From NCBI RefSeq assembly GCF_032854445.1, contig NC_088297.1, forward strand, positions 11,990,163 through 12,054,162: a stretch of 64,000 nucleotides of DNA, written 5' to 3'. This stretch comes from Liolophura sinensis. Lineage: Eukaryota; Mollusca; Polyplacophora; Chitonida; Chitonidae. Numbering within the stretch: the first letter of the stretch is position 1; each line of letters starts with the position of its first letter. Positions 14,832 through 61,499 of the stretch are shown piece after piece. A model generated the notes under the pieces. That model saw nothing but the letters and a program-made list of their open reading frames with translations. It had not been told where the DNA came from and did no database searches. A program made the position numbers and the translations under genes.

Positions 14832-17800
14832 ATGTCTCTCCAGGAGGAAAAGCGTCCCCTCCTCCCCACCGCTGACACTGGGGACGGGGGCAGCCTCACC
14901 AACCTGCATTCGGAGCAAGAGGGCGCACAGCGAAAAGCTCCCAAAGGTAAGTATTCAAGAATCGTCTTTGCTTTTATTAATATTGTGTAATTTCAGCTAC
15001 CTGATCTTGATTCTTTGACATTATATATGGATAGATGGGTAGGCCCTATGTTCCCTTTGTAAATGACGGAATAAAGACCTGAATTATAAGATACCCCCGT
15101 AAACAAATACAACTGAATAAAAGACACGAAATATAAAGTAAAAGCACGAAAAGCAATAGATGGATAGATAAGTATCTTCCCTTTGTAACTGACGGAATAC
15201 ATGTACTTGATTCAGTGACCTTGTGTTTGGATAGATAGGTATCTACCCTTTGTAACTGACGGAACACAGACACGAATTACAAGGTACCTCCGTAAAGAGA
15301 TACAACTGAGTAAGTGACGTAAGAAAGACACAAAATATAAAGTACTCCGTAGAGAGATACAACTGAATAACTGACGTATCAAAGACACGAAATACTAGTA
15401 TAGGATCTCTCTGAAAAGGGGAATAACTGAATATGTTAAGTGGCAAAGACATCAGACAAAGGGTATCCACTTGAAGATATAAAAAAGAGAAGAACAGGAG
15501 AAGAAATGAGAGGTGTTTGGGGTCACATATAAAAGTATTACGTTGGATAACTGATTGAACAAAGTCACGAAATATAGGGTTCTTCCTTAAAGAACTACAG
15601 TTAAATAACGACCGGTGTATAAAGTGACACAAAATGAGATGGAGCGTTTATCACCCTATTAAGATATGAATTACCCTGTACTTGAGATTCCTCGTGTTCT
15701 TGTTGTTTAGTTCTTGGTAATTTGTAGAATAACGTTTTACTTTATGTCGTAGTGTTTTATTTTGGCATTTATTGAGGAACGTCTTCACCTTTATGAACCT
15801 TTCTTTTTCACAGTCTGTATTGCTGAATAACTGAAATTCTCCGTGTTGTTGTTGTTTAGAACCCAAAATGTCAGAGGAGCGTCTTCACATTTATGTCTTT
15901 CTTTTTCACAGTCTATATTGTTGAATAACTGAAATTCCCTGTGCTGTTACTGTTGTTTAGAACCCAAAATCTCAAAGAGGAGCGTCTTCACATTTATGAA
16001 CCTTTCTTTTTCACAGTCTATTTTGTTGAATAACTGAAATTCTCCGTGTTGTTGTTGTTGTTTAAGACCCAAAATCTCAAAGAGGAGCGTCTTCACATTT
16101 GTGATTCTTTCTTTTTCACAGTCTATATTGTTGATTAACTGAAATTCTCTGTGTTGTTGTTGTTGTTGTTTAGAACCCAAAATCTCAAAGAGGAACGTCT
16201 TCACGTTTAGGATTCTTTCTTTTTCACAGTCTATATTTTTGAATAACTGAAATTCTCCGTGTTGTTGTTGTTGTTTAGAACCCAAAATCTCAAAGCGGAA
16301 CGTCTTCACATTTATGAACCTTTGTTTTATACAGTCTAAATTGTTGAATAATTGAGATTCTCTGCGTCCCTTTTTAGTTCCTGGAATTCCAAAGAGGTAC
16401 ATTCTGACATTTTTGGGTTTCCTCGGCTTCGTTAATGTCTACGCGCTACGCGTGAACCTTAGCGTCGCTCTGGTGGAGATGGTGACGCTCAATGAGACGA
16501 AGGTGGAAAACGCCACATCGGAATGCCCTGGTCCTAACAACACCGACGTCCCTGACGTCTATCGGGTAAGACCAGACCCGCCTAACGACACTGATATATA
16601 CGACTGCATGACAGAGAGTAAAATCAGAGCTGTGATGAGTTTGATGGGTGATATATGCTCACTCGTGTACCCGGTGAAATGCCAAGCTTAATGACTGTTG
16701 TTCATTTCTGTTGTTGTTGTTTTTTTTTGGGGGGGGGGGGTTGTTTTTTTTTTGTTTTGTTTTTTTTTTACCTATTTCTGGTTAAGCCATAATGATCGGG
16801 AGCACGCATTTTGCTACTATTTAAGCATTAACACGAACAGTTAGAATTAAACCATAACTGCATGACGTAAATTGACCAAAGGCTGTATTTCACCGGTGTG
16901 ACCATTTGCCAACTATCACAATGTTGTCGATGCTGTGGTTTTTCTCCCTGTGTTGTACGCCCTAATTATGTCGTGTTTCTGCAAAAACCAGAATTCCACT
17001 GGTGGACTAAGTATCCCCGAGCCCTGGTCCGTAAGCATTCTTTCAATGCTATTGTAGGCCTATGTTTAATATGATGACGAAATAGCATTTTGAGTATTTC
17101 TTGATAACTGACGTCTAATCAATTGTAATTAACATCACTGCATTTTTTGACCTAATTCTGCTTAAGTCATGGCGTGTAAATTGCTACCTTTCATACATTT
17201 ACATGGACAGTTAGAATGAAACCCTAACTGAGATAAATTGAAAAAGTCCGTATTTCACCGGTTACGTGTGATCATTTCCCAGATATCGCACTGTCGTCGC
17301 TGCTCTGGTTTTTCTCTCTATGCTGTACGTCTTAATTATAATTATTTGCAATGACGTTTTATAGACTGACTGCATGAATGCATGACTGTATGAAATCGTA
17401 TTACTCATACATCACTAGAGAGCAATCATCAGTTCAAATGAACCCCATTCAGAAACCAGGCTTGCTTGGCCAATCGGAAAGCCTGAATGCATTCAAAAAT
17501 TTGCATTTGTGAGAAAGCTTCTTTGACTCGATTTATAGTATCCGATACCATACGATATCACTTAAATCACACTTACACTAAAATAAAAAGTTTGCAAGAA
17601 GGTTTTCTTTAAGTGAATATGAATAAAAAGAGAATCCCTGCCTGGAAGATAGATCCCTAAATCATTCCTAATAATTCATAAATATGTAAATACTTAAGTA
17701 CGCTTGCTTAAAGGAATACTTGAGCAGAACACTAACCACATAATTTTCAACGTCTAAACACTTTTATCCATTTGCAGCAATGTTCAAAATTCTGTTCATT

Positions 17801-20800
17801 TATTTATTTATTTCATTGGTGTTCTACGCCATAATCAAGAATATTTCACTTATACGACGGCTGCTAGCATTATGGTGGGAGGAAACCGCGCAGAGCCCGG
17901 GGGAAACCCACGATCATCACGTGTTCAAATTCATCCATATCATATTTTCTTGCCACAGAAGGGAGAGTTTGACTGGAGCCCGTCACTGCAGGGAATCATT
18001 CTAGGCTCGTTCTTCTACGGTTACGTCACCACCCAGATTCCAGGAGGTTGGATTGCCGAGAATTTTGGTGGAAAAAAACTGTTTGGATTTGGTGTCCTGT
18101 GTACGTCGGCGCTGACGTTGTTGACGCCGGTCGCTGCGAGACTACACGTCGGAGTGTTGATCTTGATCAGGATCCTAGAGGGAATAGGAGAGGTAATCAC
18201 TTATGAGTAGATTTATTCCAATCCCTTGAGGTTATCCTCTACATATACTATTCGCGTTTTTGTCCAACCAAAATTTCTCCAGGGTGACCGAAACCCTCTT
18301 ATTTTTAAAAGCGTTATTTACTTAAATTGAATATTGATATTTATACGTGAATTTATTCGGCGATCATCCAACAATGATCTCTCAGAGCCGTGGTAGTTTA
18401 CCTCTGATTTCGAAAATCACTATCACTTTGTCCAGTGGGGAATATAAAGTGAAAATGTAGCATATGTACATATTTAAATCTTCAACCTTTTCAACCACTA
18501 AAGCAACTTAATCAGTGGAATTTTTGCATACAGTTATCAGAAAGTTGACACTAAAATGATTTGTTGTGTCATTAAAGATACAAACTTCACAATACTGTGC
18601 TAATTATTTCTCCACACCCCATAATTCTCTCAGAATATTTCGAATTACTGGTTGCAGAGGCGGTTGACAAGTTGGAGGAATTGGTGTATTTACCTTACCC
18701 ATTACGGCTTTGATGACAAAAAATCAATATTTCATTATTTTTGTTATTATGAAGGCTGTAGCCGTATAATTTATAGGATATATTCTCTGTTCATTGTGTT
18801 ATACAGGGTGTGACGTTCCCGGCAATGCATGCCATGTTTGGCAAGTGGGCGCCGGTGTGGGAGAGAAGCCGATTGGTTTCAATCACATATGCAGGTTTGT
18901 TTTTCTTAATTCATTGAGCTTCCTGTTTTCTTGTGTGGTTTTTCTGTTGTTGTTTGTTTTGGGGGGGGGGGGGAGGAGGGGGTGTCAGTTTTGTTTTTGT
19001 TTTGTTTCTTTAGTCAGGTATGACGGATGAGGGTGGACAAAAATGGGTAGATCTCTGAAACTTATCAACGCCCTTCGTCGACCTATACCCGTCAAACCGA
19101 CTTCATGTTTATTGTCTTGGAACGTTCGTTATGCATGACGACTGATGTATGATTTTACACCGTCGTGCTCAAGAAATTTTCACTCATAAGACGGTGGTCA
19201 ACATTATGGTGGAAGGAAACCGCACATAGTCCGGGGGAAACACACTATCATCCGCAGGTTGCTGGAAGACCTTCCCAGGTACGATCGGAGAGGAAGAGTG
19301 TATGAGCTGGATTTGAACTCACAGCGTCCGCATTGGTGAGGGACTCCAGAGCCCATCACAGGACTGGTGCGGATGTCATGTAACCAAAAAATATTGAAGG
19401 GCACTATGGTGACAGACAGGGGAACCCATTCAGCTGTACATGTGCATGTACCGCCACTGACACCATGTTGTTTCGTATTTCAGGTGCCCAGATGGGAACT
19501 GTTGTGTCATTACCCATCTCTGGCATCCTCTGTGATTCCCACATATTCGGTGGTTGGCCTGCAGTGTTTTATATATTCGGTGAGATCTTCCATATTAAAT
19601 ATCGCAACTTGAACAACTTACTATGGTATATCCGTAAGATGGATATGAAGTAATGGGGACCTGTCCAATACAGGGCTGGAGGACCTTGACGTCATTTTAT
19701 TGACATCAAATGTTCCTTTCCCAGCTCAGTATAAACTGATACATTGTAACGGTGTAGACGTTACGCTACAATCCATTCTTGATTAGCAATGGCTTGAGGT
19801 CCTGCTTCACATTGACGCCACCTCACGAAAATATGCCGTCTCCCCATTAAATCACAAAGTAAGGAAGCTCAGACAGATGCACAAGTTCGGTGCGCACACA
19901 CTGAAACACATACGTACAGTATGACGTACGCATATGACGAAACACCACACTCACCAGATATATATGAAGATTACAAAGAATCAATCGTTTGTTGAACGTT
20001 ATCTCGACTCTGAGTGGTTTCCAGTGTGGATGTTTATGGTAGTTGACACTATATACACTCCCCCGTATAATCATTTTTTACCACTTGCTTTAGGTATTGT
20101 GGGTTTCATGTGGTTTGTTGTGTAGATGTTCATAGTGGCTGTAATACAATGTCGCCGGACCCGGTCGTACCGTGTGGTTTGTAGATTCGTTAAAGATGTA
20201 GAAAACATAAAAGTTACATAAAGATTAGGTGACAGAGTTCGAAAAGTTAGTTGTAAATGTGGTCTTCTGTGCTTTTTTCGATTTTTTGAAAATATTAAAC
20301 ATATGTTACATTCTCATTTATAACATTATTACATAAAGACGTATTTATTTATTCCATTGATGTTGTAAACCGTACTCGAGAATATTTCACCTATACGTCG
20401 GGGGCCAGCATTATGGTGGGAGGAAATAGGGCAGAACCCCGGAGGAAAATCACGACCATCTATAAATTGACCTTCCAGGCAGACCACGTACGGCCGGAGA
20501 GGAAGCCAACAAAGGCTGGACTTGAACTCAAAGCAAACGCATTCGTGAGAGGCCATTGTGCCGCGCTGTCACGCTAACGACTTTTATCACAGAAAGGCAA
20601 TGGAGACCAAGAGTTGGTCCAAAATACCTATCACACAAAAAATATTTCAAATTACCTTTTCACCTGAAAGAAAAAATCCAGAAAAAAAATTTAAGACCAT
20701 ATTTACAAATAAGTTTTCACGCTCTTCCATTTGAATTTGACATAACTTTCATGTTTTCTTCTCCTTGTGTTTTGTTTGCTATGTGGATGTATAGGCCTAC

Positions 20801-23800
20801 ACTGGCTGAGTCTATCTTTTTTCAGACACTGGGCTGGTTAATTCTGACACAATTTGTTGTAGGAGATCTGGGTTATTTGTGGATCGTTGTGTGGAGGTTT
20901 ATGTTTGCGGTCTCCCCGAACACTCCGGTGATTAATTATCAAACCATTTGTTTTAGGTGCTGTGGGTTGTTTGTGGTTCGTTGTCTGGATGTTCATGGTG
21001 GCTGACACACCGGCTAAACATTCCACCATATCTACAGAGGAAAGGGATTTCATAGAGCAATCCATAGGTTCAAAGCCACAGGTAAATGCATGAAGGTTGC
21101 TATACACATATATTATACAAAAAATGAATATCCATGAATATGAAAAAAATGGAAAGATAAATAATAATTAATGTAAAACATCTGATAAAAATTGTACAAA
21201 TGTTTAATTGATTGATTGATTTATTTATTTGATTGGTGTTTTACGCCGTACTCAAGAATTTTTCACTTATACGACGGCGGCCAGCATATTGGTGAGAGGA
21301 AAATGGGAAGGGCCCGGAGAACACCCAAGTACAAATGTTGAATGTTTTAAGAAGTGTTTCACACAAAGTGGACATGTTTTATAAGCAAACAGTTCAAGTA
21401 TGTGTGGAAGCAGGCCGATCATGCATGGTCTAGTGGTTAGAGTCGTTTTTCATTCATTACCTGAAACACATGCGTTACAAGTTCAAAAGTGGTCTTAGAC
21501 AAGGGAGCGGTCACTGCTTTTGGGGCCTTGGTGGGAACAAGCGGTCGAGGAAGCACGTGCGACCGTTTGCATACCTACACTCAAAAAAAATAATCTGTTA
21601 AATTTAACAGTCTGTTGTCTGAGTAATACTTGAAAGTATTCTGCTCTTGCAGCAGATTATTCTGTTAAATATAACACACATATTCTGTTAATTCAAAACA
21701 AATATTTTATTAGACTAGAAGGATGTTATGTTGAATATGAAAGAAGATGGTGTAACAATAACAGAATACATTCTTTCACCAGTCAGACAACAGACTTCTG
21801 TTACAATCAACAGATTAATTTTTTAGTAAAATGAAGTTATTTGTTTATTTTAATTGGTATTTTACGCCGTACTAGAGAATATTTCACACACACACGACGG
21901 CAGCCAGCATTATGTGGGAGAATACCAGGTAGACCATCCGCAGGTTGCTGGCAGACTCCAAAACCAAGTCAGTTATAAACTGGGTTCGCTATTACTGAAT
22001 TACCTTCTTACTTGTCAAATGGACCAAATCTGTCAGTCAATCAGTTCATTATTAAACTGATCGTTTCTTTGTTCCCAGAGAGAAAGGACACCATGGCTAG
22101 GTATTTTCACGTCCATGCCCTTCTGGGCGATTTTCATCGCTCATTTCTGTAACAATTGGGGTTTCTACACTCTGCTTACCTGTCTTCCAACTTACCTGTC
22201 CGAGGTTCTACATTTTAACATCAAAGAGGTATTTTACATAGTACTGAACTCTACAAACAATCCTAAGAAATAAACTCAACATTAAATAAAAGAGCATTTG
22301 TATATAAACAGTTGTATAGTATTTGTTTTATTCCTTTTTGAAAAATTATCCCAAAATTCTTATTGTCGTGAGTTAAATTCTCGTATTATGTTTTGTTTAT
22401 AGTATTTTGGTAAAAGTACTTCTGGTCGCTGCAGATTTCTTCCATTACCAATGTCACAGCAATTATGTTTTTGCTGGCGGGAAAGTTGTAACTCACAAAT
22501 ATTACTTTTCTAACTCCAAAAATTGCAAGAGGCTGGATTTCACCGGTTACCTGTCACTATCTGTCAACAGTCACTTTGTCGTTGCTGCTCTGGTTTTACT
22601 GTCTGCACAGTAAAATGCACGGTTTGAATGACATTTTGTGTACATGCATCTTGGCCTTGGATCTACATTGTATGTAAAAAATCCATTACATTATGGCGGT
22701 TTTTTGGATCCGAATCCCGGCATTTTTTAAGTTGGATATAGATTAAATGTAAAGCATGTAATGGAAACAAAACACAGTTTGCTAATGTATTAATATATAA
22801 TTAATCTAACACGTCATCAGCCGATGAATATTCATGTCGGATTTGTTTCCAGAATGGTCTTTTGTCAGCGCTGCCTTATTTCTGCTGTTGGGTAACGATG
22901 AATGTGACGGGGTTTGTGGTGGATTACCTGAGAGAACATCGTTACTTGTCCACGGTACATGCCCGAAAACTGGCCACATCACTGGGTAAGTCTGTGTCAC
23001 TGTCCATGGGTGGCGATGAATGTGACAGGGTTTGTGGTGGATTACCTGAGAGAACATCGTTACCTGTCCACGGTACACGATCGGAAACTGGCCACAGCAC
23101 TGGGTAAGTCTGTGTCACTGTTCGTGGGTGACAATGTGACAGGGTTTGAGGTGGATTACCTGAGAGAACAGCGTTACCTGTCCACGGTACACGACCGGAA
23201 ACTGGCCACAGCACTGTGTAAGTCTGTGTCACTGTCCATGAGTGGCGATGAATGTGACAGGGTTTGTGGTGGATTACCTGAGAGAACATCGTTACTTGTC
23301 CACAGTACACGCCGGGAAACTGGCCACAGCACTGGGTAAGTCTGTGTCACTGTCCGTGGGTGACGATGAATGTGACAGGGTTTGTGGTGGATTACCTGAG
23401 AGAACATCGTTACTTGTCCACAGTACACGCCGGGAAACTGGCCACAGCACTGGGTAAGTCTGTGTCACTGTCCGTGGGTGACGATGAACGTGACAGGGTT
23501 TGTGGTGGATTACCTGAGAGAACATCGTTACCTGTCCACGGTATACGACCGGAAACTGGCCACAGCACTGGGTAAGTCTGTGTCACTGTCCGTGGGTGAC
23601 AATGTGACAGGGTTTGAGGTGGATAACCTGAGAGAACAGCGTTACCCGTCCACGGTACACGACCGGAAACTGGCCACAGCACTGGGTAAGTCTGTGTCAC
23701 TGTCCGTGGGTGACGATGAACGTGACAGGGTTTGTGGTGGATTACCTGAGAGAACATCGTTACCTGTCCACGGTACACGACCGGAAACTGGCCACAGCAC

Positions 23801-26800
23801 TGGGTAAGTCTGTGTCACTGTCCGTGGGTGACGATGAACGTGACAGGGTTTGTGGTGGATTACCTGAGAGAACATCGTTACCTGTCCACGGTACACGACC
23901 GGAAACTGGCCACAGCACTGGGTAAGTCTGTGTCACTGTCCGTGGGTGACGATGAACGTGACAGGGTTTGTGGTGGATTACCTGAGAGAACATCGTTACC
24001 TGTCCACGGTACACGACCAGAAACTGGCCATAGCACTGGGTAAGTCTGTGTCACTGTCCGTGGGTGACAATGTGACAGGGTTTGAGGTGGATTACCTGAG
24101 AGAACAGCGTTACCTGTCCACGGTACACGACCGGAAACTGGTCACAGCACTGGGTAAGTCTGTGTCACTGTCCGTGGGTGACAATGTGACAGGGTTTGAG
24201 GTGGATTACCTGAGAGAACAGCGTTACCTGTCCACGGTACACGACCGGAAACGGCCACAACACTGGGTAAATCCGTGTCACTGTCCATGAGTGGCGATGA
24301 ATGTGACAGGGTTTGTGGTGGATTACCTGAGAGAACAGCGTTACTTGTCCACGGTACATGCTTGGAAACTGTCCCCAAGACTGGGTAAGTCTGTGTCACT
24401 GTCCATGGATGACGATGAAGGTGACAGGGTTTGTGGTGGATTACCTGAGAGAACATCGGTACTTGTCAATAGTACACGCCCGGAAACTGGCCACAGCATT
24501 GGGTAGTCTATGGATGTAAGTGGGTCGTGGTATAGGACTCTATGATTATTTTCATCAGAATGCTGAACTATGATATTATCAAGTAAAAATGGTGATCTGG
24601 TAAAACTTTTGACTGGTGAGTAGAAAGGTTCACCACAGTAAAGTTTATAAAGTAATGTAAAAGAAGCGTAGACCCCCCCCCCCCACCCCCCACCCCCCCA
24701 CCCCCCCCTCTTCTCGACAAGGCTGCAATATTACCTAAGTGACATTAAGCCACGGTCATTCATTCGAATTCACTTTTTGTTTGCACTGCCTAAGCTAGGT
24801 TTCACATCTTTGTATTCTCCAGGTTTCCTGTTTCCCGGTGGGTTTCTTGTGGCGGCCGGTTATTCGGGATGTAACGCGACGTTAGACGTGGCGTTTTTGA
24901 CATTGGCGCTTGGTCTCTCGGGGATTTACATGTCTGGTTTCATAGTCAACCACCTGGATATTGCGCCGAAATTTTCAGGTGAGGTTTGTAAACACAAAAC
25001 ATTATCGGGACACATTTTGCCCCAGTTGGACCATAAGGTGCCCTTTGTTTTTTTAACGAAGGAGCTAAATCGTAAACCATAGACATTTTCGTTTAAGAGT
25101 ACGCAATCAACTGGTATGAGGTTCAGAAAGCCAAACATATTCAAACATTTAAAGTCTCTTCAAAAACCTCAAAAAATGAAAGTAGGTGATAGTACTGTAC
25201 GCATGATTTTCAGTTGTGTCTTAGTTGAGCCTTACATGATCGTCGTCTTTGAACTTTTTCTTTCACTCCATTCCACATTCGATGTCCACAGGTACTCTAA
25301 TGGGTTTGACGAACTGTTTCGGAACACTTCCAGGCTTCCTTGGCCCAATTCTCGCTGGGTACCTCACGGATAAACAGGTACATGCATAACCATAAATGTA
25401 GGACAGTGTGTATACATGTCTTTGTGGAAGTATTATAGACCTTTCCGAACTGTCAATCAAGAACACGCAGTTGACCAATCATAAACAGTATTGTTGCTAG
25501 TAGGTCAACCGGATGTCCCACTCATTGGTTACAAATGCTCTCTTTGACGCAATGACGTAACAATTGCTTTTTTTTTTTTTTTTTATTTATTTTTTTGCAC
25601 ATGTGTAACAACACTGTGAATAAGAAATGGTGTACATGTACTTTATTTTCACAGTGAAGTTTGCTGGCAGTTTGGGGAATTTTACTGCCGAAGCCAAAGT
25701 GTTGCAAATGTGTGAACACCAATAGGCCGTATACACCGACATCATGATAATTTAAAGCTAAAATGAGTGTAGGTAATTCGACGGTATGCCTTTGATGTGA
25801 ACTTGTATTTGTACAATAATAGTTGTAATTATTGTATATATATATATATTTATTTGATTGCTGTTTTACGCCGTACTCAATAATATTTCACTTATACGAC
25901 GGCGGCCAGCTTTATGGCGGCAGGAACCCGGAAGATATATAGCCCGGGGGAAACCCACGACCATCCGCAGGTTGCTGACAGACATTCCCACGTACGGCCA
26001 GAGGAAGCCAGCATGAGCTGAACTTGGTGACCACATTGGTGAGAGGCTCATGGATCATTACGCTGCCGTAGCGCGCTAACCAACTAAGCCACGGAGGCCC
26101 CCAATAATATTTGTAAATCAGCTACATTTGTTTTTTAAAGGATTTACAGTACTTTGTCTATGTCGTAAAATACAGCAAAAAGTAATGTGCATATGTACAG
26201 AAATTTTCAGCAGGAAAGGGAAATAGAACGTATCAGACGAAATCAAAAGTGAAAACAATTCCCTGAATTTCCCGGTTTGATATGAGTGCATACTCCCTAG
26301 TTATGGGTCCCCTGTGTGTCTATTTTATGGTTTAAAAGTGGTATGAGAACGTTGAACGTGACACCTTGGCAATGCCAGTTATGTATAAGAAATAATGACT
26401 GTATCGTTGTTCATTTTAGCGCGATTAATGTGAAGTTTTAGAATGAGGCGCCGTATGTTATGACGCAGGTATGGTCCGAAGCCTGTGTCTAATTTTTACA
26501 CGCGTTGGTGTTCAACGTTGCATGTAGTAGCCAATTACAGTATACAGAATTTGTGTTTTACGCGACACCCGACTCTAAAACAATCCAAAAATGCCTGGAA
26601 TAAGTACAAAACTGAAAAACCGCCTTTTTCTTTGTCCGATTTCCATGCTTTCTTTTATATAATTTTACTCTCATACTAGGCTTTGTGACCAAGTATCAAT
26701 GTTTTCAACACTCAAGATTGGCAGAATAGTCCTCACTTTGCACAGCTCATTATGATGGAACCATATTTTGGCAGATAGCTGTAATTGTTCACATAGAGAA

Positions 26801-27625: not shown

Positions 27626-27631
27626 AATAAA
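27626..27631 (+). terminator. Polyadenylation signal of the SLC17 gene
   Basis: AATAAA 472 bp after the stop codon, followed by a T-rich tract (27640-27653). Confidence 0.7.
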
Positions 27632-44179: not shown

Positions 44180-44467
44180 TATTTATTTATTTATTTATTT
44201 ATTTATTTGCTTGATTGGTGTTTTACGCCATACCCAATGATATTTCACTTATACGACGGCTGCCAGCATTATAGTGGGGGAAATCAGGTACAGTCCGGGT
44301 GAATCCCACAACCGTCCGGAGGTTGCTGTCGGATCTTCCTCGTGTATAGATGAAGAGGAAGCCAACAAGAACTGAACTTACAGTGATCGCATTGGTGAGA
44401 GGCTCCTTGGTCATTAGGACCCCTACGCTGCGCTAGCGCGCTAACCAACTGAGCCACGGAGCCCTCC
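44180..44467 (-). mobile_element. Full-length SINE (-) with (TTTA)n tail
   Basis: (ATTT)n tail of about 30 bp, then TTGATTGGTGTTTTACGCCA, the full core, and an intact head GCGCTAGCGCGCTAACCAAC-TGAGCCACGGAGC. The best-preserved head in the window. Confidence 0.93.
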
Positions 44468-46744: not shown

Positions 46745-49700
46745 ATGGATGCTTCGGCCAAGGATACTAAGGCCTTGGAGGAAAAGAAGGCAGAATTGGT
46801 TCAGAAAGCTAAGCTGGCTGAACAAGCCGAACGGTACGATGACATGTCGACAGCGATGAAAGAGCTGACGGAGTTAGAGATTGAGCTGAACAACGAGGAG
46901 CGGAATCTGCTGTCAGTAGCGTACAAAAATGTGGTAGGGGCTCGCCGTTCATCGTGGAGAGTCATCTCCAGTATCGAGTCCAAGACGGCAGATTCAAGCG
47001 AAAAGAAACAGAAGATGGCAAGTGAATATCGGCAGAAGGTCGAAGGGGAACTGAAAGACATCTGCCAAGCTGTACTGGTAAGAGAATGGCAGGTGTAACC
47101 CCTCCCCAAACCGGCATGACTCTCCTTTTTTTTTTGTCCACATTCTTCTTCCAGTTCTTCATATCTAATCGTTAATGGTTGAAACAAACAGTTGTGCAGT
47201 GTATGTGTCAATCAGAGTGTGCAGTAAAGGTGTTAAGGCGATTTATTTTATCATGTCGCTGGATCTATCACGTTACTGCTTACAAAACGTGTGTAAGCCT
47301 GTAGGACGTTGGGTGCAAGTAGTCCACGGGTCAGCGTAGGCTGAGGCTAATAGGAAGTGATACCGCAGCCAAGGTCATTATCATAATATCTTACCTTACA
47401 CACTTTCCTCTGGTCATTTTCTTGTGGTACTTTACTCTGTGTTGACAAAAGAGTTGCACAGATGTCGAATCATTTCACAATTGAAGCTTTTTAGGGATCT
47501 GATTTGGCCATGAACCTCGCCCTCTTGACACTTGGGTTACGATTGTCTGACTGCTCTGTTCATTTTTGTGCTTGCTCATCCTGTAATGTATCCACTGTAC
47601 ACTCATCTTCAGTTAATTTTAAACACAGGAAACTTATTTTTGAGATATAAATGCTAGTAATATGTGTGTGAAGTTCATTTAGTTGCTGTTGATCAGATAG
47701 CTTGCAGATGACATTTTATGGATTATGTAAGACGAGAAACAGGGGATAGCAGTCAAATTACTCAGCTTTTAGATGGAATTCGTTGATCTGTAAAAAACTT
47801 TTATCTCATGCTGGTGAAAAGTTTGTTTTAGCAGAAAACAGAGGGCAAAAGTTAATGAGATGAAGGTGAAGAGTAAATCAGATGTCACAAGTTTGAGTTG
47901 TTGCTTTTTGTCTTTCATTTGTATTCATAATTTATTTGAAAGTCATGAAATATTAATTTTCTGTGTTTGTGCAAAGTTCATTCTGTTACATCTCTACTCC
48001 GAATTTTTGTTTGTAAGGAAATGTGTGCCAAGGAAGTGTGCAGAAGTGGAAAATTGTTTCAGACAGCGTGCGGTTAATCAAGAGTTCAGCATTTAATATT
48101 TTGCTCAGGGGAGGTAATTCATTCAGTCTAGCTGTTGAAATCAGCACTATAGATTTATAGTAATAAATGTAATACTGCTGTATGGTTAATGGCTTTCTTC
48201 ACTGTTGTGAATAGCTAATACTGTGATACTGGTCATATAATGCAATTAATATGATTTTACACCTAAACATGTAAAACTTGATTCAAACAAAAACGTTATT
48301 CAAGGCTGATTCAGACAAGCAGAATTCAAGAGACAAGCTTTAGTTTGAGTCTGTCAAACTGGTACATGTACATGATTTGACAAAATGTGCTAATGTTTCC
48401 TCTTAAAACTGGACAGGGGTTGATTGGACAGTTGACCACAGGCATTTCCAGGGATGAAGCCACGGTCTAATGTATTCTTATTAACGCACAGTCTTCAGTA
48501 TTACAATTAGATAACAATAAGTTGAGCTTAAGCGGTGTGACTTGAAATGTCAGCTGTAGAATTCATTTGGGAACATGGGAGAGGGATCTTCTTTCTAGCC
48601 CTATTTGTGTTCTAATATCTTCATTACTCGTATAGAGATAAACGGCATATGCAAATATCTGCAGATGATAGTAAGAACAATTTCTCCAAATTTGCATTTG
48701 TGGGCAGGTTTAATAGGTCATGAACAGAGCTTAAATTGTTTTAATCATTTGTGAGTTGTTATGTCTAACACCTGTGAAGTGAAGCAACTGGATTGTGTGA
48801 GGCAATAAGTTATAATGTATTTGTCTACAGGGTGTGGGATAGTCTGCACTCCTGTGCAGTGAAACCCGGTGGTGCTATTTAGTGTCTCTTCTAGGTGAGA
48901 AAGTCAAGCCTAAAGCCTTCATTAAAGTGAATTGAACTACTTGTGAAAATGGCACTGGTTCAAGTAGGAGCTTAGCCGAAGAGTTCAGCTTGCAGTCCTA
49001 CTATTGAACTAAAAACGTTTCCATACGTTTGTTAGTTTACAAAGAGTTCTTTTAAATCAGTGGATTTTGGATGGCCAATTTTTTGAATGGAACTATTTTT
49101 TAGTGCATTATTGGGTCACATGTTTTACAAAGCTGTGTGATAAAACAATGCATTCACACTTATGCCAATGGGTACCCATGCGCGGTCTGAATATCCTCTG
49201 AGCAAATTATACACGGTTTGACAATCTTTTTTGATGAGCAAATTACAAAATTGATTGCTGGGTAATACCTCCACTTCCTGTTGGTTTTCCAGTTTAACAT
49301 TATATTTATGATGCTGCAAAAAGGTTTTTACAGTATTTGATGCTCCATTTTGGCTGTGTACATGTAAGTAACAAAGGGCAGTGGCTGTGCATGTACATGC
49401 TGCAGAGCTCCGACAACAGTGTTCATTAAGCTATGTGAAAATCAATACAGATGTCGAACTGATAATGGTGGGACTTGAGATGCTTGCACCAGGGCCTGCA
49501 GCCACCTATATGTCACAGAGGGCGGTTTGATGCTTCAAAATGGCAGGTGGCTCTTTGCCCATGACTTCCATGATGTGTCACCAAGGAGTCACTCTGTGGT
49601 CATCTTCCGTCCAGTCTGATGCTCCAATTACAATCAGACATTGGATTCTTTCGTTCAAGACTGGTTTGTTCCTTGGTGAGGGATTCATTTTACTCAATTC

Positions 49701-52700
49701 CTGTTGTTTCTGCCAACTGTTCAGCGTAAATTGTCTTCCATCAATACACATTTTACCAAACACATCTAACTATTCTTTCCAATTAAAACTTGATTAAGCG
49801 TCTGTTTATTGTTGCATTGCAATAGGTATGAAAATATTTTAAGGCAACTAATTAAAGGTTTTGTTTCTATTGTACTAAATGAGCAAGCTGTTCTGATGTC
49901 TGCATGGGTTTGCATCAGTCTTTTAAAGACCACAACAAAGATAAACATCAAATAGTAAGAGGATTTTCATGTTGTATGAACACTTGCCACGGTGCATATG
50001 CTGACCCTGAAGGCTGCAGTAAGTTAGTGTGGGATACCTCTTACATTTATCGTGGGTTTTATGTTTAGAGAGGAATTGGTGATATGAATTGGAATTGGTC
50101 CCATCCATTTCTGTAGGCTATTGGTAGGTGAGAGCTTCTGTTGTGATGGGTTATGAAAATCCTTCAGAAGCAAGCCTAGACACATAACATGGTATTGACA
50201 GGTAGCTGGAAGTAAGTGGGCCTTTGGAAGTAATCAATGGCAGTCAGATTTGATGCTAAGGACGCTGTGGTGGAAATCGCTGCCTTAGGCTATGGATAAT
50301 GTAAGTGGAGATGGGGACGCTTTGTGGTAATATTACACGTGAATATAGTAACTCCCATTTAACAGCTGAATGTTTGGAGGAAATATATGTGCCATTGATT
50401 TTCACCCACCGGGATTGCCAGTTCACATTCATAAGATGTAACATTGAATTGATCCCAAGGTGCTAGACTGTTCCAGTTGGTTAGGAGGGAAAAAAATATA
50501 TTCCTGTGTTTAAAGTAGTCGATGTGCAGGTTGGAATCAACTTGTCCTAATCCAGGATGAAAAGTTCCAGTTGATCTTTATAGCCATGTATTAAATGGGC
50601 AGAATTAAGACATCGTTAAAATACGTGTAATACAGTTTAGTTCAGGTCATTGATGTATTTGAATACAGGCCATTCAGGAAAAATTGTGTCAAGAAACATG
50701 ATGGGGGGAAAAAATGGATAGATGTTGGCCTTGTGAACCATCAAAGATCAGAAGAACGTGTAGAGCAGTGCAGAGAAAGGGAGAGACTGTTAAGGGAGTG
50801 TAGGGTTTACTAGAGCATGTTAAGTTTCTTGGAACTTCCTGGTTAAAAAAATGTAAAAAGTACCTGTTGTACTGGTGTGTTATAGAAGCAAAACCTCACT
50901 AAAACAAAGCGGAATCTGATAGTAAATATGAACCTGCTAGTGAGTTTAACCAAATGGATGCCCATGAGAGGTTATCCATCTGGTGAACCTTCCCGTCCCG
51001 GTTAAAAATAGTGTACAAATAGAGTTCATCTTGCCCTAAACCTGTAGCAGTGGTCCCATGTTCTCTCCCTCTCTGCAATGAGAACATCTTAAGCTCACAT
51101 GGGTGAAATTTGAGCATAAATTTGCCCATTTTTGTTATTGTAATGCATTTTGTTTTAATGGTTTAGAATATTGGAGGTTTTGTTTTAATGGTGTGGAATA
51201 TTGGAGTTTATGTTTATTTTTTTTCCCGGAGGTTTGGTGTGGTTTCATAATATAGGATTGCATTCTAACATCTAGGAACAAATTATTGTACACTTGTCAG
51301 TAATGGTCATTTGCCTTCATGATGCCCCCTATCCATTGCTGTGGTCCCGGATATGGTATGAAAAGGTTATTCGAGAAGCTAAGCTTGCCAGCATGTAGTC
51401 CTATCATAGGTCAGATCGTACATGTATGCTTGTCACAAATGTATGTTCAGTAGTCATTCAGGTGATCAAATGTCTGGTGTGAAACATTCTTGTATGTGAA
51501 AGGTAATGTAATAGTTGTGCAGTATTCATTTCTTAGAAGTTCCGAATCCTGTGATTTCCCATGCATGTAATTATTCCGCTGCTTCATTTCAGATAAGATT
51601 TTTGCCCTTGCGTGACCTTTTGACTGAAGGTCATAAAACAGTATCATGACAAATGACACTATTCAGCGATGTTATTAATGTTGATATGCGCTGAAGCAGG
51701 ACGACATTCTTACTTGATGAACTCAGTTAAGTGTGGCCATTAGAATGTCTTCACCATAGGAGTGTACATAAGTATGACACTCATCATACCTGTAGGATTG
51801 TATCATGTATGATTTCAAGCATACTTCTTTTGCATACTTGGAAGGTGATGAGAGGTTGACATTTTCGGGCATGATGTAAATCACTGTTCAGACCATAGGG
51901 GTAGCCAGCTACCCATCCACGAGTGAAATAGAGAACTGGTGCTATTTGGACACCCTGTTTTCAGCAATTTTAACTTTTTAAGAGATAGGAGAAAATGAAA
52001 TCTGGACACCCTCCTTTAACAAAAGAGCAACAAAAAGAGCTGTTTGGACAACCTCTTCCACATTTCTGGCTAACCTCCTGATTCATACATACAGCCCTTC
52101 TAAATCCTGTTAATGACTAGGAAGGAGTATAGTTCACGCCCTAGTTTTGTGCATCTGGGAAATTTCAAAATGGAGATTCCCCTTCAAGGTTAGTCTGAAA
52201 CTACAACATTTATGCAGTAGTGTTGGATGCAACTTAGATTTGGTGGTCCTGATTCTCAAGAAATTTTTTTTGTTTGATTCTTAAACTTTAGTCAAGCTAT
52301 TGATTTTAGGCATTAGTATGTCTTTCATAGGACACAACCAAAGTTCATTTTCCTGTGCTGACCTACATACATGTATGTAAAGGTGATACATTGGGCTGTT
52401 TTGTGTGCTAGAATTCTGCTTAACAAGTACATACATTACAAAAACCAGTAATTTAATCCATTCTAAGAGTTCTCGCTTCTGCTATGTATTTCCTTTCAAT
52501 TTTGTCTTTTCTGTTATTTCCGTAATTTTTCTCGGACCAAGTCACACTTGCCAGTTGTATTGCCGAAAACTCAAGTCAGTGCAGTGTCAAATTGTCAAAA
52601 TTGCTTTGCCAATGAAGCAGCGGTAATGTGTAAGGATAAATTTGACTATTTCTGTATGTTTTTTCCACGTCCTTCAGGATTGTATTACTCAGGCTTGTTT

Positions 52701-55700
52701 AACATGAATGTACTACATGTTAAACAACATGTAGTACAGTTTCTCCTTATAGCTCCATAATGTTGTGCTCAAGCCTGCTCAGTTCGGGATGTTAAACTGG
52801 CTGGTTGTGTGAGGATCTCCCTCTGAATCAGCTGCACCTTGTGTCAACCAGGAAATGAAATCCTCACCCTGTCATGTGTCCCTGGGCTAACACACTTGAA
52901 TGAGGCAGATTTGACCCCATTTCTCTGGCTGTAGTGTCGACTTCAGCTATAAATGTGAAATGACCCATCCCCCACCAGACTAACCTGTTTGCCTTGATGC
53001 TTGTAAGGCTGTCAAAGTTCGGTAATTCTGGACATTTTATTGCTATATTATCAAATTTTTATTTTAATACTTTGCTTTATGTAAGGTGATACAATGTTTT
53101 AGCCATCCAAGAATTAGACAATTCTTTTCTTGTGTTATGTCCTGAAAACTCTTTGTGCTTGGCATAGACCGGCAGACCCCCAGGTAAAACTCTAAAAGTG
53201 GCAGGGTGCAAAGGGACATTGCTCAAAAAAAATGGGGGAGTGGAAATTTCCAGTGCCTATCTATTAATGTGTCTGACACAAAAGTGGCAAGGTGCTCATT
53301 TTAGGGATGGGGGCATATGGGTGCAGCACCTTCCAAAAAAAATGTCTAGCCATGGATATGGCTCGTATGACTGAAAGCATACGTATTGGAATTATGAACC
53401 TATCAGTGGCTTCGTTTGTTGTCCGCTTCAAAATTATCTGTTGATAGCTCATTTATAAAGACTGGAACGTATTCTACAACGTAGCTGTAAAGAAGATGCT
53501 TAAGAAAGCGACTTCTGCAGCTCTATCACAACACATTAGAACTACATGGAAGACCCAGTTTTCCCCTGTGTTGAAGAATGTGGCACCACATGTATCACAA
53601 CACTGTAAATGTTGCCATTTTATTGTTGGTAGGTGTCCCAGAGGTCACTTCATTGGGACTGGAATGAAAGGGACAAAGTGAGAATCTTGATTCCGTTGTT
53701 CACCTTTCTTGATGTGAAGACAGGGCTGGGCTGAGATATTCAGGTGTAGACATTTACCCACTATATTAGAGTGAGTGTGTCATTCCATGCTCGCCTGTGG
53801 TAGAATTGATCATCCTGGCTTTCCTTGTGAGGTCGTGAATGAAACTGTGTCTGAACACTAACTGCAAGCCTGTGACACCAGGGTTCATTGCAAGTGCAGC
53901 TTGAATTACACACTGCCCTTAATTAGTGAGTGTAATCCTGAATGTTAGCTCTAATGTATTCCCTCACACCTGCCATCCTGTTCAGGCCCATGCTCTCAGC
54001 TGAAGTGGTGTTGATGATGACTAATGCATGTCTTGCTAATCTGTGCTTCGAGGATAATGATCTAGTGGTCTGATTGATAGTGGACATGTTTGTGGACATG
54101 TAAAACGTGTAGGCGTTGTTATTCATGTTCAGAACCAGACTCTCTTGGGCTTTGAAATGCCTGTTTCCTTTGATGATATTGATGCAATGTGCATCATTGA
54201 TTCCATGCTTAACAAATTAAGTGCTAAACAGTAAGGTAGGTGTGCGTTCTCGACCTCTGGTTCAAACTCTGCATTTACAGTCAGTATCTCCAAATCTTCT
54301 TCAGCATTTTCAAAATCACAAGTTCATGTATCATCCGCCAAATGCAGTGTCATTTCTTGCATTGATTAATGCGCAGTAAGACATTGGTAATGTTAATTTA
54401 TTGGCCTAAATTGGTGCTAAAACTGGCCAGCCTTTCTTTTTTTACATGAAAACTAAAGGCTTGAAAAGATTTCAAGCAGAGGACTTTATATAGTGGTGTT
54501 AAATGGGCTTACATTTAAATGGTTCATTAGTTACAAAATCTCCTACAAAATGTGAAGAGCCATACACATGTACATGTGTTAATCTACCCTGGTCTTCAGA
54601 CAGCTCTTTGTGAATTGTATGGAATACTATTCTTTAGAGTGAGTGGCTCTGTGTTAAACATCATGCACATGTAGGTCTGTGTCAGTGAAAGAGCAAGTGA
54701 TAGAATTTTTTATAGCCTTATTGTGGGCAGTTGTAGAGAATTTTTGCATAGAATGAAATATATTCTTTGGACTTGAAGTTGTTTGGGAAGGATCCTCAGG
54801 TTGTGCATAGCCTTGGCTGGGATATGGTTAGAGTCTAATTATTCAGGTGAATGTAGGTATGGCTGTGTGTAAAGAGCTATGTTTGTGTAAATTCAGATTG
54901 AAGGGATGACTCAGTGTTCATTTGAATGACAAGTTTAGTAGATTTTTTTATGAAGCTTTATTAAACATGCTGACTGAATTTTCTCAACAGGAAAACAAGA
55001 GCTGAACAAAATGATTTCCTCTAATATGTTTTCACATTGCTGTGATCCTGTTTTAAAAATAGAAAAACAATAGTGTTGTTCAGTTCCGTTCAGCTTAGCA
55101 CCACATACATGTATCCGTTTGCAGCTGTGACTAATCTTTCCTTACAAGGGAGATAATTATGGTGCTATTTGCCTTTATCAAAGAAAATGATATTGAACAA
55201 ATCTGGTTCAGAATATTATTTCAAATGACAAACTATTGAACTGAAACTATTGGGGCTGTATTTTTAAGAATTTTGCACCATCGGACAAAGGACACAAAGA
55301 CTGTTGAAAGCCATATTTTAAAGGGGCACTCCTAATGAATAAGACATATTGTATAAATACAATATGTCAAATTTTGTTTTTGGGTGTGAAGGTCATTCAT
55401 TTGTATTTGATTTTCACTGCGGTCTAGATGCTGTGCTAAAAGAAGTTGAACTGTTGTGCATTTCAACTATATTTTGTTTTAAATTCCCACTTGAACAAGG
55501 ATAAAAAGGCCGTTTATTTAGACACGTCTATCTCTAATGTAAGCCCTGTGGGTGCTGGGAAAAGTCTGCTTAGTGGTGTAGCTGAAAGGTCAAGACAGAC
55601 TGACAAAGTTACTATGACCACATCTGGCTCTTTACAGAGTACTGTGCGTGTAAAATGGGTTACAGTTTTGTCATAACGAGGTCAATGTGTACGAAGATCT

Positions 55701-58700
55701 GAAGACTGTCATTTTATTAAATTTACAGCTCACTGATTTTGTCAAAGACTCTAGGTGCAGATGTACTGAAAGTGCCATGATGATGAATAGATAGGCCCTA
55801 TGTAGGGTTTGGTGCTGGATACTGATCGTCTTCAAAATTTTTACAGTTTTGAAATGTTCCTGTTAAGGTTGTTGCCTTGTATTGCGATTGTTGGACTTCT
55901 GATTTCTGCAGAGTTAGGCTTGTCTCTGAAAGTTAAATGTCACATGATATAATAATACTGTTCAATAAGTAACTGTGTCTGACGCATGCACATACAGGTA
56001 AGCCTTTCTGACTGGTCACTATCTACTTGCATCCCACCATAAAAAACAAATAGATAGCAAGAACCAGCACAAAAGTGGAAACTGTGTCTTAGTCATGTGC
56101 TCTTGCGTTTAGCTTCACGTAGTCTAGAGGTACATTGTCTGATGAATGCGTTGTGCGGAAACACCATCAAGAATGTGGTATTCATAATTTTTCACAACAC
56201 GTGCACACGTACATGTAAAATTTACACTTTCTGTTGATTGGTAACACCTCAACAACTGTTACAAGAAAAGAAGCAGATTTGAGAGGTTTAGGAGTTCAGG
56301 TATGGTGTGAATGGCAGAATTGGATGAAGTATTAAGGGATATGGAATGCATACGAATGAGCCAGTGACAAGCTTGCACGGTGTAGTGTACTCTCTCTACG
56401 CACTGCACAGCCTAGCCCCAACTGATAGTATGAAATAAGTTGTGAATAAAGCGGGTATGGGGTTGGGTTACGGCTCTCCTTGTGACTCATGGCTTGCCTA
56501 TTTATAGCCTTAGCTCACACTGGCCTTACTGGAGAGAGGGAGGGAGGGCATGCCTTCTTGCTTGCTTGGTTGCAGGACGGGCTGCTCATGTACTGTAGTG
56601 TACTGATATACTGCCTGGGGCCAGTGCAGATACTGATAGACTTGGCAACATTTTGGGGTGGGTGGCTGCCTCACTGGCTCTTAGAGTGTAGACATATGGC
56701 CTGTTGCTGAAAACAGACCAGGAGGTTTAACCAGTTTGAGTCATTAGACTATGACAGTGCAGCCCAATGACCTGACCTTCCTATCCTGTAGTCATTAAAC
56801 ATGGCTGCCAGGTATTGGTTTTTTTAGGGGGCATCTACAAGTAGAAGACATGTAGCAAAGAATTTAGCCCATAATGCTGTTGGTATGATAATGTATTGTG
56901 TGAACTGGTGATTTTATGGATGAGTGACAGTCTGTAAAGGATACATTACACTGTACAATATGTATGTAGCTCCGTCTGAAGATTCGTGCCTGATTATCCC
57001 CCTAGGGTAACATTCGGAACTGTATGTACAGCCATGATAGTTTGTCTTCACGACTTTCCAGTGTATTATGATGGGTCAGTAACAAAGGAAATCAATTTTT
57101 GTCTTGCAATTCCACGAATGAGTGACCCTAAGGTGCCCTACAAGAACCTGTCCCTCCACCCTCTGCCCACACTATTCTCTCTTATGCTTACTGTAGAAGA
57201 CCCTCATTGTCCATGTGACTATAGAATTTTATCCCCTAATTATTGGTGTTACATTTTATTCTCATCTTCAATACGTATTTCAATACTTTCAGATTACATA
57301 CATTTAGGAAACATTCTATTTTCAATTCCAGATTATTGCAGTTGTAAAGAATGATTTTTTTTTATGTGATATGTCAACAGTCATGCATCAATACACTTGT
57401 CACTTCTGTTGTTTGCAGGTGATTTGATGCAAAGACTCTTAGCAGAACATACAATGTGTCCAACAATGCTGTAATGTCTTAGAAATGATTACTGTTAACA
57501 AAGTTTTAAATGTACTTTATGGATGACATACAGAATATATTTGTTCTAACTTCGTTGCCCTTTTTCTCAGCGTCTTTTAGACCAGTTCTTACTTCCTAAA
57601 GCCTCTTCTATAGAAAGTAAAGTCTTCTACCTGAAGATGAAAGGGGACTATCACAGGTATTTAGCAGAGGTGGCTGGCGGAGCCCAGAAACATGGTAAAA
57701 ATGCCTGCATTTGTCTTGTTTTTCTTCCCCACAGAAACTGCTCGCCAACTTATTAATTCCAAAAGCTACTAATGTAGAAAGCAGGGTGTTCTACTTGAAG
57801 ATGAAGGGTGACTATTACAGGTATTTAGCAGAGGTGACAAGCGGTGGAAAAAAACAGGGTAAATGTATTCCCTTTTCATACTTATTACTATAAATTTGGT
57901 AGTTATTCTGTTGACAAGCCATGGCCCCTGGCACAAAAACTTTAGTTACAGATCAGGAGCCTGTTTCACAAAAGCTATGTAAAATGTTATGCACATGTAT
58001 CTGTCATAATGAAGCAACACCATGGTAGTCCTGTGCATATGATGTTACGTAGCATTTATGAAATGCTCCAAGGGATTTGTACAAACACCTCTGTAGTTAA
58101 GCACTTCAGCCAATGAAACAAACCTATTAGAAAACAGAATAAGATGACACCTTGTCTTCTAAGCTCATTCTTTGATTTACCTTTGGGTATGTGCTTGATA
58201 CAGGTGTTTGGCTTTTACATGTAGAGTAATTTGCCGAGGTGTTCGTCTTTTGCCATTGTTGCACTTGTCCTTCATAGAAGTATTTTACTGTGATGTGTGC
58301 TTTCAGTTTTGCTGTTGCTGTTTATTTACACGTGTCACAAAGCAAAAGAGTAGATTAGATGCTGTGATCTACACGATTCACTTTTAAGTAGCACAAATCT
58401 TTCTTGAGGGCAGAGTGCGGAACTATGCTGTATCAAACCATTGTGATTTTGACATAATGATTAACGTTGAAGAACCTTCAGATATTTGCAAAAAAATATC
58501 AGTTTTGTCTACATATAGCGGCTTTCAACTGAATTGTGTAGACATTTACTGTAAAGTAGTAACTATAAAGAGGTGTTGTTTCCCTTCTGACTTCCTTTGC
58601 TTACTGGCTGCACTTAATTGCTCAGTGGATCAACCCAATTGATAGTAATTTTGTCCTAAAATGCAGAATGGCTTACTCAACCTGAAATTGTTGTATTTGT

Positions 58701-61499
58701 GGTAGACTGTTTTGCCAAACATGCTAAGCAAAAATAAGTAGTTCTTTTGATTCTTTATTCAAGTTTAAATGCAGTTCCTTTTAGTTATGCTTCATAGATC
58801 TTTGTCTTGAGGCAGTAAAATGTAATCTAACAGATCTACTTAAAGAGACAGTGCTGTCAAAACCTAGCCACAATAGTTAGATATGACCAGAAATGTTTGG
58901 TATTAAAACTGTCAAATTAGCTCTTTGATTATAAACAGATATATGAATAAAGCACAAACTGTTTTAGTCATTTTGTGTCTTGAGCCAGTGTTATGTAGTT
59001 TGAAAATGTATCCTTACGCTATTATCTTCATATGTAGAGTTTAAGGTACAGGTATACATATCTGTTAATATTCACAGTGGTGATAAAAAGAAAAGTGTTT
59101 TTTTTTTGCATTCTCTCAATTCTAGGAAAACAGCGGGACTCCTGACGGTACTAGAGGCCTTATAGGAAGAAATGCCCATGGGTGCTGCTGAGTTTTGGCA
59201 GAGTATTTACATCACCTTTACATTTTCTGTTTGCAGAGGTTGTTGAAAATTCACAAGCAGCATATGAGGATGCTTATAATATCGCCAAAGTGGAAATGGC
59301 TCCCACACATCCCATACGGCTGGGCCTGGCTCTTAACTTCTCTGTATTCTATTATGAAATTCTCAATTCACCTGATAAAGCTTGTCATCTAGCAAAACAG
59401 GTAGGTGGATTCCCAGTAAATTGTATTGGTAGATCTGTAATCCTCTGGTCTTAGGAATCAAACCACATTAATCTTCTGCACCACACAGTGATGTGAGGAA
59501 AGGCTTATGAAATGTACATGATTCAAAGACAATATCAAATTCAACAAATACAACATTCAAATTCCATTGTTAACGCATACTGGATGTCTCAGTGAGTACT
59601 TTGATTGTAGCCGTGATTAACAGCAGGCAGAGGCTGAGAAAGCAGAGAATTTAAATATGAGACATCTTGGCAGTGCATGTTTTCTCAAAGTTCATGTTTT
59701 TAAACATTACACATAGTTGACACCACTGTGAGCCATCCATCACAACTGCAAACATCATTTGATTAGAAATGTTGTTTGGTATCATTTTTTGAAACCGATG
59801 GTTGTAAGAAATAGTTAACACCTACAATGGGTTGGATCATACACGTAAAGTTTTAGGTTTTTTTCTTTGGGTTTAACAAACTGGCAAAGAAACTAGTCTA
59901 AGTTTGGAGTTGTTCAGGAGTTACGTCCCTTTGAGTAATATTTTTAAGTGCTTAGTTTGAAGTTGAACATTTGTAAGTACTGCGTCAAAGGTAATGTGAG
60001 AAGTTTTTCAACAGTCTTTAAAGGTCTTGTTACTTAAACCTTGTCCTCAGACAGATAAGGGACATGAATATTCAGTTGCACAACTTCCAAGACCATCAAT
60101 TTTCTCTTTGAACTAAACAAAAAAGCAGCAGAGACTTCAGTGAAAATATGGGGACTGTATGAACATAAATGATCTAGAGAACCTTACAGGGTAAAAGGAG
60201 CCTGCACAACCAGCCGATGAAAGTAGAGCTCAATCAGGTTTCTGTAGACTGTAGATTAGGGCAAGTTTCTGTTTTTATGTGCCAAGAATTATTGCCCTCG
60301 TACATAAAGCCAGAGGTCTTTTGTACTTTCAGCTGATGTATTGACATTTTCGAGGATTTGTCTTGCAGATTCCAATATTGAAATGAAGGGGTTACAAGAA
60401 CGCAATATTGATGAAAAATTAACTGATAGACCTGATGCCTTGTTTATGTTGGATATTACGACAAATTCCCTTCATCTTCGGTGAAATGTATACTGCTGTT
60501 AATTGTGTGTAATGTAGCTTTTGTTTTTCACAGGCATTTGATGACGCAATCGCAGAACTAGACCAATTAAGTGATGAATCATACAAAGATAGCACGCTGA
60601 TCATGCAGCTTCTCAGAGACAACCTCACGGTAAGTTGACTCCAACAGTTGAATCGTTTTGTCATTAAAAATTACACTTCTGGTTTCCTTCTTTGATGGTG
60701 TGCATGTTACAGTATGACTGGGTGGAACTTTGTGGTGTTCCAGTGAGACTCCGCCACAAATGTCCACCTTGGGTCTGACCAGCTATAAGGAGACCCTGTC
60801 ATGATTGAAATAATGACATTAAACCTGAGCAAACTTTTCCTGTGTTCATTGAAGGTTTGTTATAAGAACACAGTGGTGTAGCAAATGATTTCTAGGATCA
60901 AAACATGATTTAGATAAGTCTTTGTGTATCTTCACATGTTATAACTATTATGGTACTTAGTAAGGATTTCCATGACTTATTGCACATACTTTGTGTGGAT
61001 TCAATACCAGCCTTGAAAAGAGAATTTATAGTTTTTCATCTGTTTGTAAGGACTTTGGTTACAGTGGGGTTGTCAGCAGTGCTTGTAAGGCCATCTACGC
61101 AATCTTGCATTCTATGAAATCCACCTGGCATGCAAGTGTGTGCACTTTAGGAAAAATTGGTCCGTTTACAGCTGGTACTGATATTTCCTCCACCTCGTAA
61201 AACTAATCAGTCCCTCTCATAGTAAGTGATAAATTCTTGAGTATGGCATCAGTCCTCAGTCAAATAGGTCAATAAACATGTGGTTTGTGTGTTTCTGTCC
61301 TCAGTCAAATAGGTCAATAAACATGTGATTTGTGTGTTTCTGTCCTCAGTCAAATAGGTCAATAAACATGCGGTTTGTGTGTTTCTGTCCTCAGTCAAAT
61401 AGGTCAATAAACATGTGGTTTGTGTGTTTCTGTTCTCAGCTCTGGACCTCGGATAATCCGGGTGATGATGATTCGGAACAGCAAGCCGACAACAACTGA
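46745..61499 (+). CDS. YWHAZ: 14-3-3 protein, zeta/beta class, with mutually exclusive exon 2
   Basis: Exons: 46745-47077, then 57571-57694 (2a) or 57735-57858 (2b), 59237-59400, 60534-60629, 61440-61499. The protein is 258 residues with either choice. It is a dimeric cytosolic adaptor that binds phosphoserine/threonine motifs. Evidence: [20 protein letters not shown] with K61 and R68 of the binding groove; R140-Y141 from exon 2; [19 protein letters not shown] in exon 3; [14 protein letters not shown] in exon 4; LWTSD and an acidic tail in exon 5. Compared with vertebrate zeta it has about 11 extra N-terminal residues ([15 protein letters not shown]). Exon 1 to exon 2 is a 10.5-kb intron. Paralogue naming (zeta versus beta) is by overall resemblance; the epsilon class is excluded by the NNEERNLLS and tail sequences. 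Confidence 0.95.
47078..57570 (+). other. 14-3-3 intron 1 (10.5 kb), no gene seen
   Basis: Starts GTAAGA and ends TTTTTCTCAG. I found no second gene, no clear SINE copy and no tandem array here, in contrast to the repeat-rich SLC17 and MRTO4 introns. A 122-codon open frame at 56986-57354 has no recognised family. First introns of this size often hold enhancers, but none can be named from sequence. Confidence 0.6.
57571..57694 (+). CDS. YWHAZ: 14-3-3 alternative exon 2a
   Basis: Residues 112-152, phase 0 in and phase 1 out: [13 protein letters not shown]...[20 protein letters not shown]. It differs from 2b mainly in the first helix turn, at 139 (His here, Tyr in 2b, next to groove Arg140), and in the loop after LAEV. 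Confidence 0.93.
57695..57734 (+). other. 40-nt intron between exons 2a and 2b
   Basis: GTAAAAATGCC...CTTCCCCACAG. Too short for the two exons to be spliced to each other comfortably. Including both (248 nt) would shift the frame, so the exons must be used alternatively. Confidence 0.85.
57735..57858 (+). CDS. YWHAZ: 14-3-3 alternative exon 2b
   Basis: Same length (124 nt) and phases as 2a: [13 protein letters not shown]...[20 protein letters not shown]. It carries the more usual YYRY of 14-3-3 zeta. A paired arrangement is known in the insect 14-3-3 zeta gene. Confidence 0.93.
61215..61256 (+). mobile_element. Possible SINE core remnant beside the exon 5 repeats
   Basis: TAGTAAGTGATAAATTCTTGAGTATGGC resembles the core TATAAGTGAAATATTCTTGAGTACGGC; short and degraded. 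Confidence 0.4.
61260..61439 (+). repeat. Four 45-bp copies of the 14-3-3 exon 5 acceptor region
   Basis: Units 61260-61304, 61305-61349, 61350-61394 and 61395-61439. Each ends GTTTCTGTCCTCAG (GTTCTCAG in the last, the true acceptor). Every unit is 15 codons and phase 0. Units 1, 3 and 4 are open; unit 2 has ATG TGA. Use of the acceptor ending at 61394 or 61349 would add 15 or 30 residues in frame. Confidence 0.9.

Follow-up and report, generated by a model that had tools for sequence, protein, structure and literature searches.

Minisatellites spanning or abutting exon-intron junctions in three genes of a chiton

How do runs of near-identical splice sites come to lie beside the exon edge that a gene appears to use? 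The question is raised by a 64,000-nucleotide stretch of Liolophura sinensis DNA (contig NC_088297.1, positions 11,990,163-12,054,162, forward strand; the whole stretch is hereafter the window), in which three genes, a sialin-like SLC17 gene, MRTO4 and 14-3-3, carry repeated sequence next to five splice junctions. The initial annotation had read these as five tandem arrays built from exon-intron junctions, more than chance would place there. All five sites are present in the stated orientation, and a unit that spans the boundary is found in three of them (SLC17 exons 2 and 8, MRTO4 exon 7); the array at 14-3-3 exon 5 holds no exon sequence and the copies at SLC17 exon 6 are not tandem. We consider it probable that these are ordinary minisatellites, or local duplicates in the case of exon 6, and that an exon edge lay by chance within, or next to, the unit that founded them.

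Repeat units at five junctions

Self-comparison of the junctions of the three genes with the Basic Local Alignment Search Tool (BLAST; E 0.01) found copies at five junctions and otherwise only between two alternative exons of 14-3-3. At the donor of SLC17 exon 8, the true unit is accompanied by 13 extra copies, as the initial annotation had counted, which are 84-93% identical and each consist of about 97 exon and 21 intron bases (118/114 bp). Successive spacings of 118, 114, 118, 118, 118, 114, 118, 118, 118, 114, 113, 118 and 118 describe a four-unit higher-order repeat, 118/114/118/118 (468 bp), and from this block pattern we infer slippage or unequal crossing-over as the mutational route. 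TGG/GTAAGT is intact in 10 of the 13 copies. By eye, the first and last units of the alignment seem the richest in private differences.

The copies were rejected as alternative exons: they lack acceptors, and none of the SLC17 paralogs among the matches listed has an exon 8 array, in a listing where 12 of the 13 window copies turn up as separate matches and so serve as a positive control. One paralog (L070) carries a separate array at exon 3, a position at which the window gene lacks one; since the exon 8 array in turn recurs in no listed paralog, such arrays arise independently. Inspection by eye found no other run of repeated matches to the same range in three listings in which 65 out of 213, 92 out of 386 and 81 out of 173 candidates were scored; these listings reveal only arrays whose unit codes for some 30 residues or more, and most kinds of array found here would escape them. 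A myosin pair in these listings (C1:26642195 / C1:26643291) resembles mutually exclusive exons.

The donor array of MRTO4 exon 7 has a 55-bp unit with 12-16 exon bases and nine extra aligned copies, in agreement with the earlier count of about nine. Seven of them keep an AAG/GT donor, with scores of 6.3-9.9 compared with 8.0 for the true site.

The acceptor array of SLC17 exon 2, previously described as six copies, consists of five decoy units upstream of the true one, with a 105-bp unit that takes in about 35 exon bases, recognisable though decayed. BLAST detects the decoys on the intron side only (84-88%); on the exon side each of the five is identical at 21-26 of 50 positions (p 5e-5 to 0.009), and the array alignment covers 38 exon and 58 intron bases. 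The AG core is intact in four of the five decoys and the fifth has no AG. A sixth GTTTAG match, at 16211, was rejected as a unit and has no exon similarity (15/50, p 0.29).

The remaining two acceptors depart further from the initial description. At SLC17 exon 6, three decayed copies had been proposed; decayed copies do exist, but there are two of them, 94 and 863 bases upstream of the exon. At 14-3-3 exon 5, an array does stand beside the true site, with a 45-bp unit, a length divisible by three, and an end that coincides exactly with the AG. Upstream lie four decoy AGs rather than three, all with the AG core. In BLAST the similarity runs no further than the final base of the intron, and the alignment covers 0 exon and 60 intron bases; the exon is therefore not part of the unit. 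The idea that acceptors beside arrays are weaker was set aside on a leave-one-out scoring of 22 acceptors, in which SLC17 exons 2 and 6 were the two lowest but 14-3-3 exon 5 fell mid-range, a comparison of three cases.

The three gene models contain 22 introns, one more than the 21 or so first counted, and 44 junctions, all with clean open reading frames (ORFs; Table 1). The SLC17 product matches Pfam MFS_1 (E 9e-54), with sialin as its nearest PDB match (E 3e-154); Pfam Ribosomal_L10 and RL10P_insert domains support the name MRTO4, and the third product matches Pfam 14-3-3 (E 5e-105). The two versions of the second 14-3-3 exon are separated by a 40-base intron and each gives a clean 258-residue ORF; judged by sequence, they are likely a mutually exclusive pair.

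Table 1. Genes and junction-associated repeats in the window (TRF, Tandem Repeats Finder)
Feature	Position	Strand	Structure or basis
SLC17 (sialin-like) gene	14832-27154	+	11 coding exons; clean 531-residue ORF across GT-AG introns
SLC17 exons 1-6	14832-14946, 16378-16565, 17959-18192, 18807-18894, 19484-19579, 20957-21081	+	
SLC17 exons 7-11	22079-22228, 22853-22985, 24823-24978, 25292-25377, 26930-27154	+	
SLC17 exon 2 acceptor array	15774-16377	+	TRF (ends 16362), BLAST, alignment; exon from 16378
SLC17 exon 6 acceptor-junction copies	20080-20141 (82%), 20826-20903 (78%)	+	BLAST; true exon from 20957
SLC17 exon 8 donor array	22889-24509	+	TRF, BLAST, alignment
MRTO4 gene	28478-39360	-	8 coding exons; clean 264-residue ORF
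MRTO4 exon 7 donor array	28633-29230	-	TRF (28649-29230), BLAST (76-97%), donor check; exon ends 29219
14-3-3 gene	46745-61499	+	258 residues; exons 46745-47077, 57571-57694 or 57735-57858, 59237-59400, 60534-60629, 61440-61499
14-3-3 exon 5 acceptor array	61252-61439	+	TRF, BLAST, alignment

Junctions compared with chance

The genome is repeat-prone in general, as had been supposed. The window holds 14 arrays of period at least 25 over 14.3% of its bases, and 23 other 10-kb stretches (L005-L027; three beside the window and 20 at places drawn on nine scaffolds) hold 59 such arrays over 14.1%, so that the window is not special in repeat density relative to this sample. The share of about 14% in the sampled stretches is close to the 14.04% of 'unclassified' repeats in the published annotation (PMC11068029), which does not imply that the two sets are the same. 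The genome has 609,464,459 bases in 632 contigs; that source reports 632 scaffolds (N50 37,343,639; longest 96,433,062; scaffold_11 27,489,247) and 28,010 protein-coding genes, and its authors later corrected the species name (PMC12441733), replacing Liolophura japonica by L. sinensis.

To set an expectation for junctions, each array of period at least 20 was counted once, by the length of its unit. The chance that a position lies in a founding unit is then 0.017 (73 arrays, 230 kb) to 0.025 (10 arrays, window genes), and 0.7-1.1 of the 44 window junctions should do so. In an independent sample of 106 predicted junctions from three gene families, four lay in spanning repeats (95% interval 1.0-9.4%), compared with 1.8-2.7 expected from founding units (P 0.12-0.29) and with 48 of 300 random positions. 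The window and the sample show no significant difference in rate; spanning repeats outside the window include a donor (L070) and an acceptor (L065). Within the window introns, copies were found at 7 of 44 junctions, or 5 of 42 when the two edges of the alternative 14-3-3 exons are set aside, compared with 292 of 1,301 intron tiles. Three tests (intron tiles, founder-unit expectation and independent exon sample) thus gave no support to junction enrichment. The initial annotation had called the junction hits excessive and had named a lack of enrichment over a null as its own refutation; run on a sample rather than the full genome, that comparison gave no enrichment.

The arrays would then need only processes that act throughout this genome. 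With roughly one base in seven in arrays, local duplication would copy a stretch of roughly 45-120 bp, and slippage and unequal crossing-over would go on to multiply whatever sequence is there; where the duplicated stretch held a splice site, later copies would carry decoy sites. Such an array would persist only if the exon-side copy stayed intact and the surplus were intronic, and donor arrays would therefore run downstream and acceptor arrays upstream. The true exon-side site would be used while the decoys drift. The ORFs of all three genes run through the original splice sites only, and no new intron or exon was seen in them. Splicing probably ignores the decoys.

The decoy cores show no clear extra conservation. 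Each core was ranked by its number of intact copies among all stretches of the same length in its unit, itself among them: 42 of 110 matched or beat the core in SLC17 exon 8, and 52 of 91 in exon 2. The earlier suggestion that decoys are tolerated agrees with how they look.

Several observations weigh against a purely incidental origin. The decoy core of MRTO4 falls in the better-kept fifth of its unit (10 of 47 stretches match or beat it). Taken alone, the window has three spanning tandem arrays compared with the 0.7-1.1 expected (P 0.04-0.06), four if 14-3-3 is counted (P 0.007-0.009) and five with exon 6 (P 0.001), which is non-tandem and so not like for like; these P values are after the fact, the window having been picked for its arrays. 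The 106 junctions from three families may leave room for a modest enrichment. In alignment, three sampled arrays (L028, the L030 acceptor and L040) reach to within two bases of a junction, as the 14-3-3 array does, and arrays that abut a junction are perhaps in mild excess over chance, although the tandem-repeat caller ends these same three 10-34 bases away. The four cases are at about 419 in L028, 391 in L030, 544 in L040 (gene orientation) and 61439 in the window, and in none does the similarity enter the exon by more than one base.

Some of these counts would favour junctions as mutational hotspots, with arrays seeded by breaks or R-loops at splice sites and hence concentrated there: the window alone has three to five where about one is expected, and abutting arrays recur in L028, L030, L040 and 14-3-3. 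The sample of 106 speaks against it, both through its near-chance count of spanning arrays and through a rate far below that of random positions, and we judge the hotspot unlikely. The need for a junction-linked cause such as the R-loops offered initially is not supported.

More doubtful still is that the decoys are functional, in splicing regulation or as alternative isoforms, and kept by selection. Their GT or AG cores do survive in 10 of 13 (SLC17 exon 8), 7 of 9 (MRTO4) and 4 of 4 (14-3-3) decoys, and splicing to either of the two closest 14-3-3 decoys would lengthen the protein in frame, by 15 or 30 residues. Against this, in the two SLC17 arrays the cores are conserved no better than other parts of the same units, and in MRTO4 only slightly better, and an early stop is predicted on use of any of the 13 exon 8 decoys, the four tested at exon 2 or the seven tested in MRTO4; the next two 14-3-3 decoys also lead to a stop. 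Neither core conservation nor reading frame supports function, save for the two in-frame 14-3-3 decoys, and we regard such selection as quite improbable.

The exact copy number of tandem arrays is hard to assemble in general. An assembly artefact, with reads collapsed or duplicated at junctions, could draw on that difficulty but is scarcely credible given units that differ at many sites, the ordered four-unit pattern, comparable arrays at other genes on other scaffolds and a published assembly from HiFi reads (PMC11068029).

Other repeats lie in and near the window. An array at 1-1401 begins where one just to its left (L005, 7501-9997, about 49 copies) ends; both have a 51-bp period. Arrays at 6638-6922 and 10698-11270, about 4 kb apart, apparently share one 145-bp unit (two and four copies; consensus alike by eye). 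A transfer RNA-like short interspersed element with the motif GCCAGCATTATGGTGGGAGG occurs, by eye, in many copies and both orientations across the window (for example 25846-26100, 31300-31565 and 44185-44465).

Known systems and implications

The closest parallels are the amphioxus 'mirages', minisatellites that span exon-intron boundaries in Adh3, the globins BflGb6 and BflGb9, troponin C and PGBD5; in these reports donors and acceptors are both affected, units measure 10-160 bp, many carry AG/GT and edge units escape homogenisation (PMC3087553, PMC3902484). Splicing there is reported to be undisturbed, and length varies between haplotypes. The chiton arrays at SLC17 exons 2 and 8 and MRTO4 exon 7 likewise have a tandem unit across the boundary and keep AG/GT in most decoys (4/5, 10/13 and 7/9, respectively), and both boundary types are hit, in the window twice at a donor and once at an acceptor, and elsewhere at a donor (L070) and an acceptor (L065). 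In contrast, the 14-3-3 unit has no exon bases, the exon 6 copies are not tandem and the host is a mollusc; not being from a cephalochordate, the chiton arrays are therefore best called mirage-like and stand outside the amphioxus set. For the chiton, a per-junction rate has been estimated from a sample and set against chance.

In human primate-specific paralogs, internal tandem repeats at exon-intron boundaries have been proposed to give rise to new introns by way of cryptic splice sites (PMC2812944). They too are minisatellite expansions at gene boundaries, but about half are in coding sequence and change the protein, whereas the chiton extras are intronic. Intron gain through tandem duplication of AG/GT proto-splice-site stretches (Rogers 1989, cited in PMC3087553) similarly duplicates splice signals; the chiton arrays are without a new intron or exon. 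An account of earthworm metallothionein genes describes intronic minisatellites and, in the portions consulted, does not mention junction-spanning ones (PMC12783039); a comparative paper on chitons does not use the word minisatellite in the portions consulted (PMC12005716). We found no report of junction-spanning minisatellites in molluscs in the open-licence literature, mostly at title and abstract level, which leaves their absence from print unproven.

Junction-spanning minisatellites, in print for amphioxus, are now also described in a mollusc, with a sampled per-junction rate (4/106) and a chance comparison; the finding that chance may be enough has a value of its own. If that rate held over the 28,010 annotated genes, thousands of such junctions would follow by extrapolation. 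Tentatively, a few percent of all chiton junctions could lie in spanning minisatellites, which would amount to thousands of natural arrays of splice sites and make this a second 'mirage' genome, one outside the chordates; some decoys would be used at a low level and changes in copy number would produce heritable isoforms, with 14-3-3 exon 5 as the best candidate. The arrays call for caution in gene prediction and in scans for exon duplication, and they offer natural tests of splice choice among near-identical sites and possible starts of intron growth.
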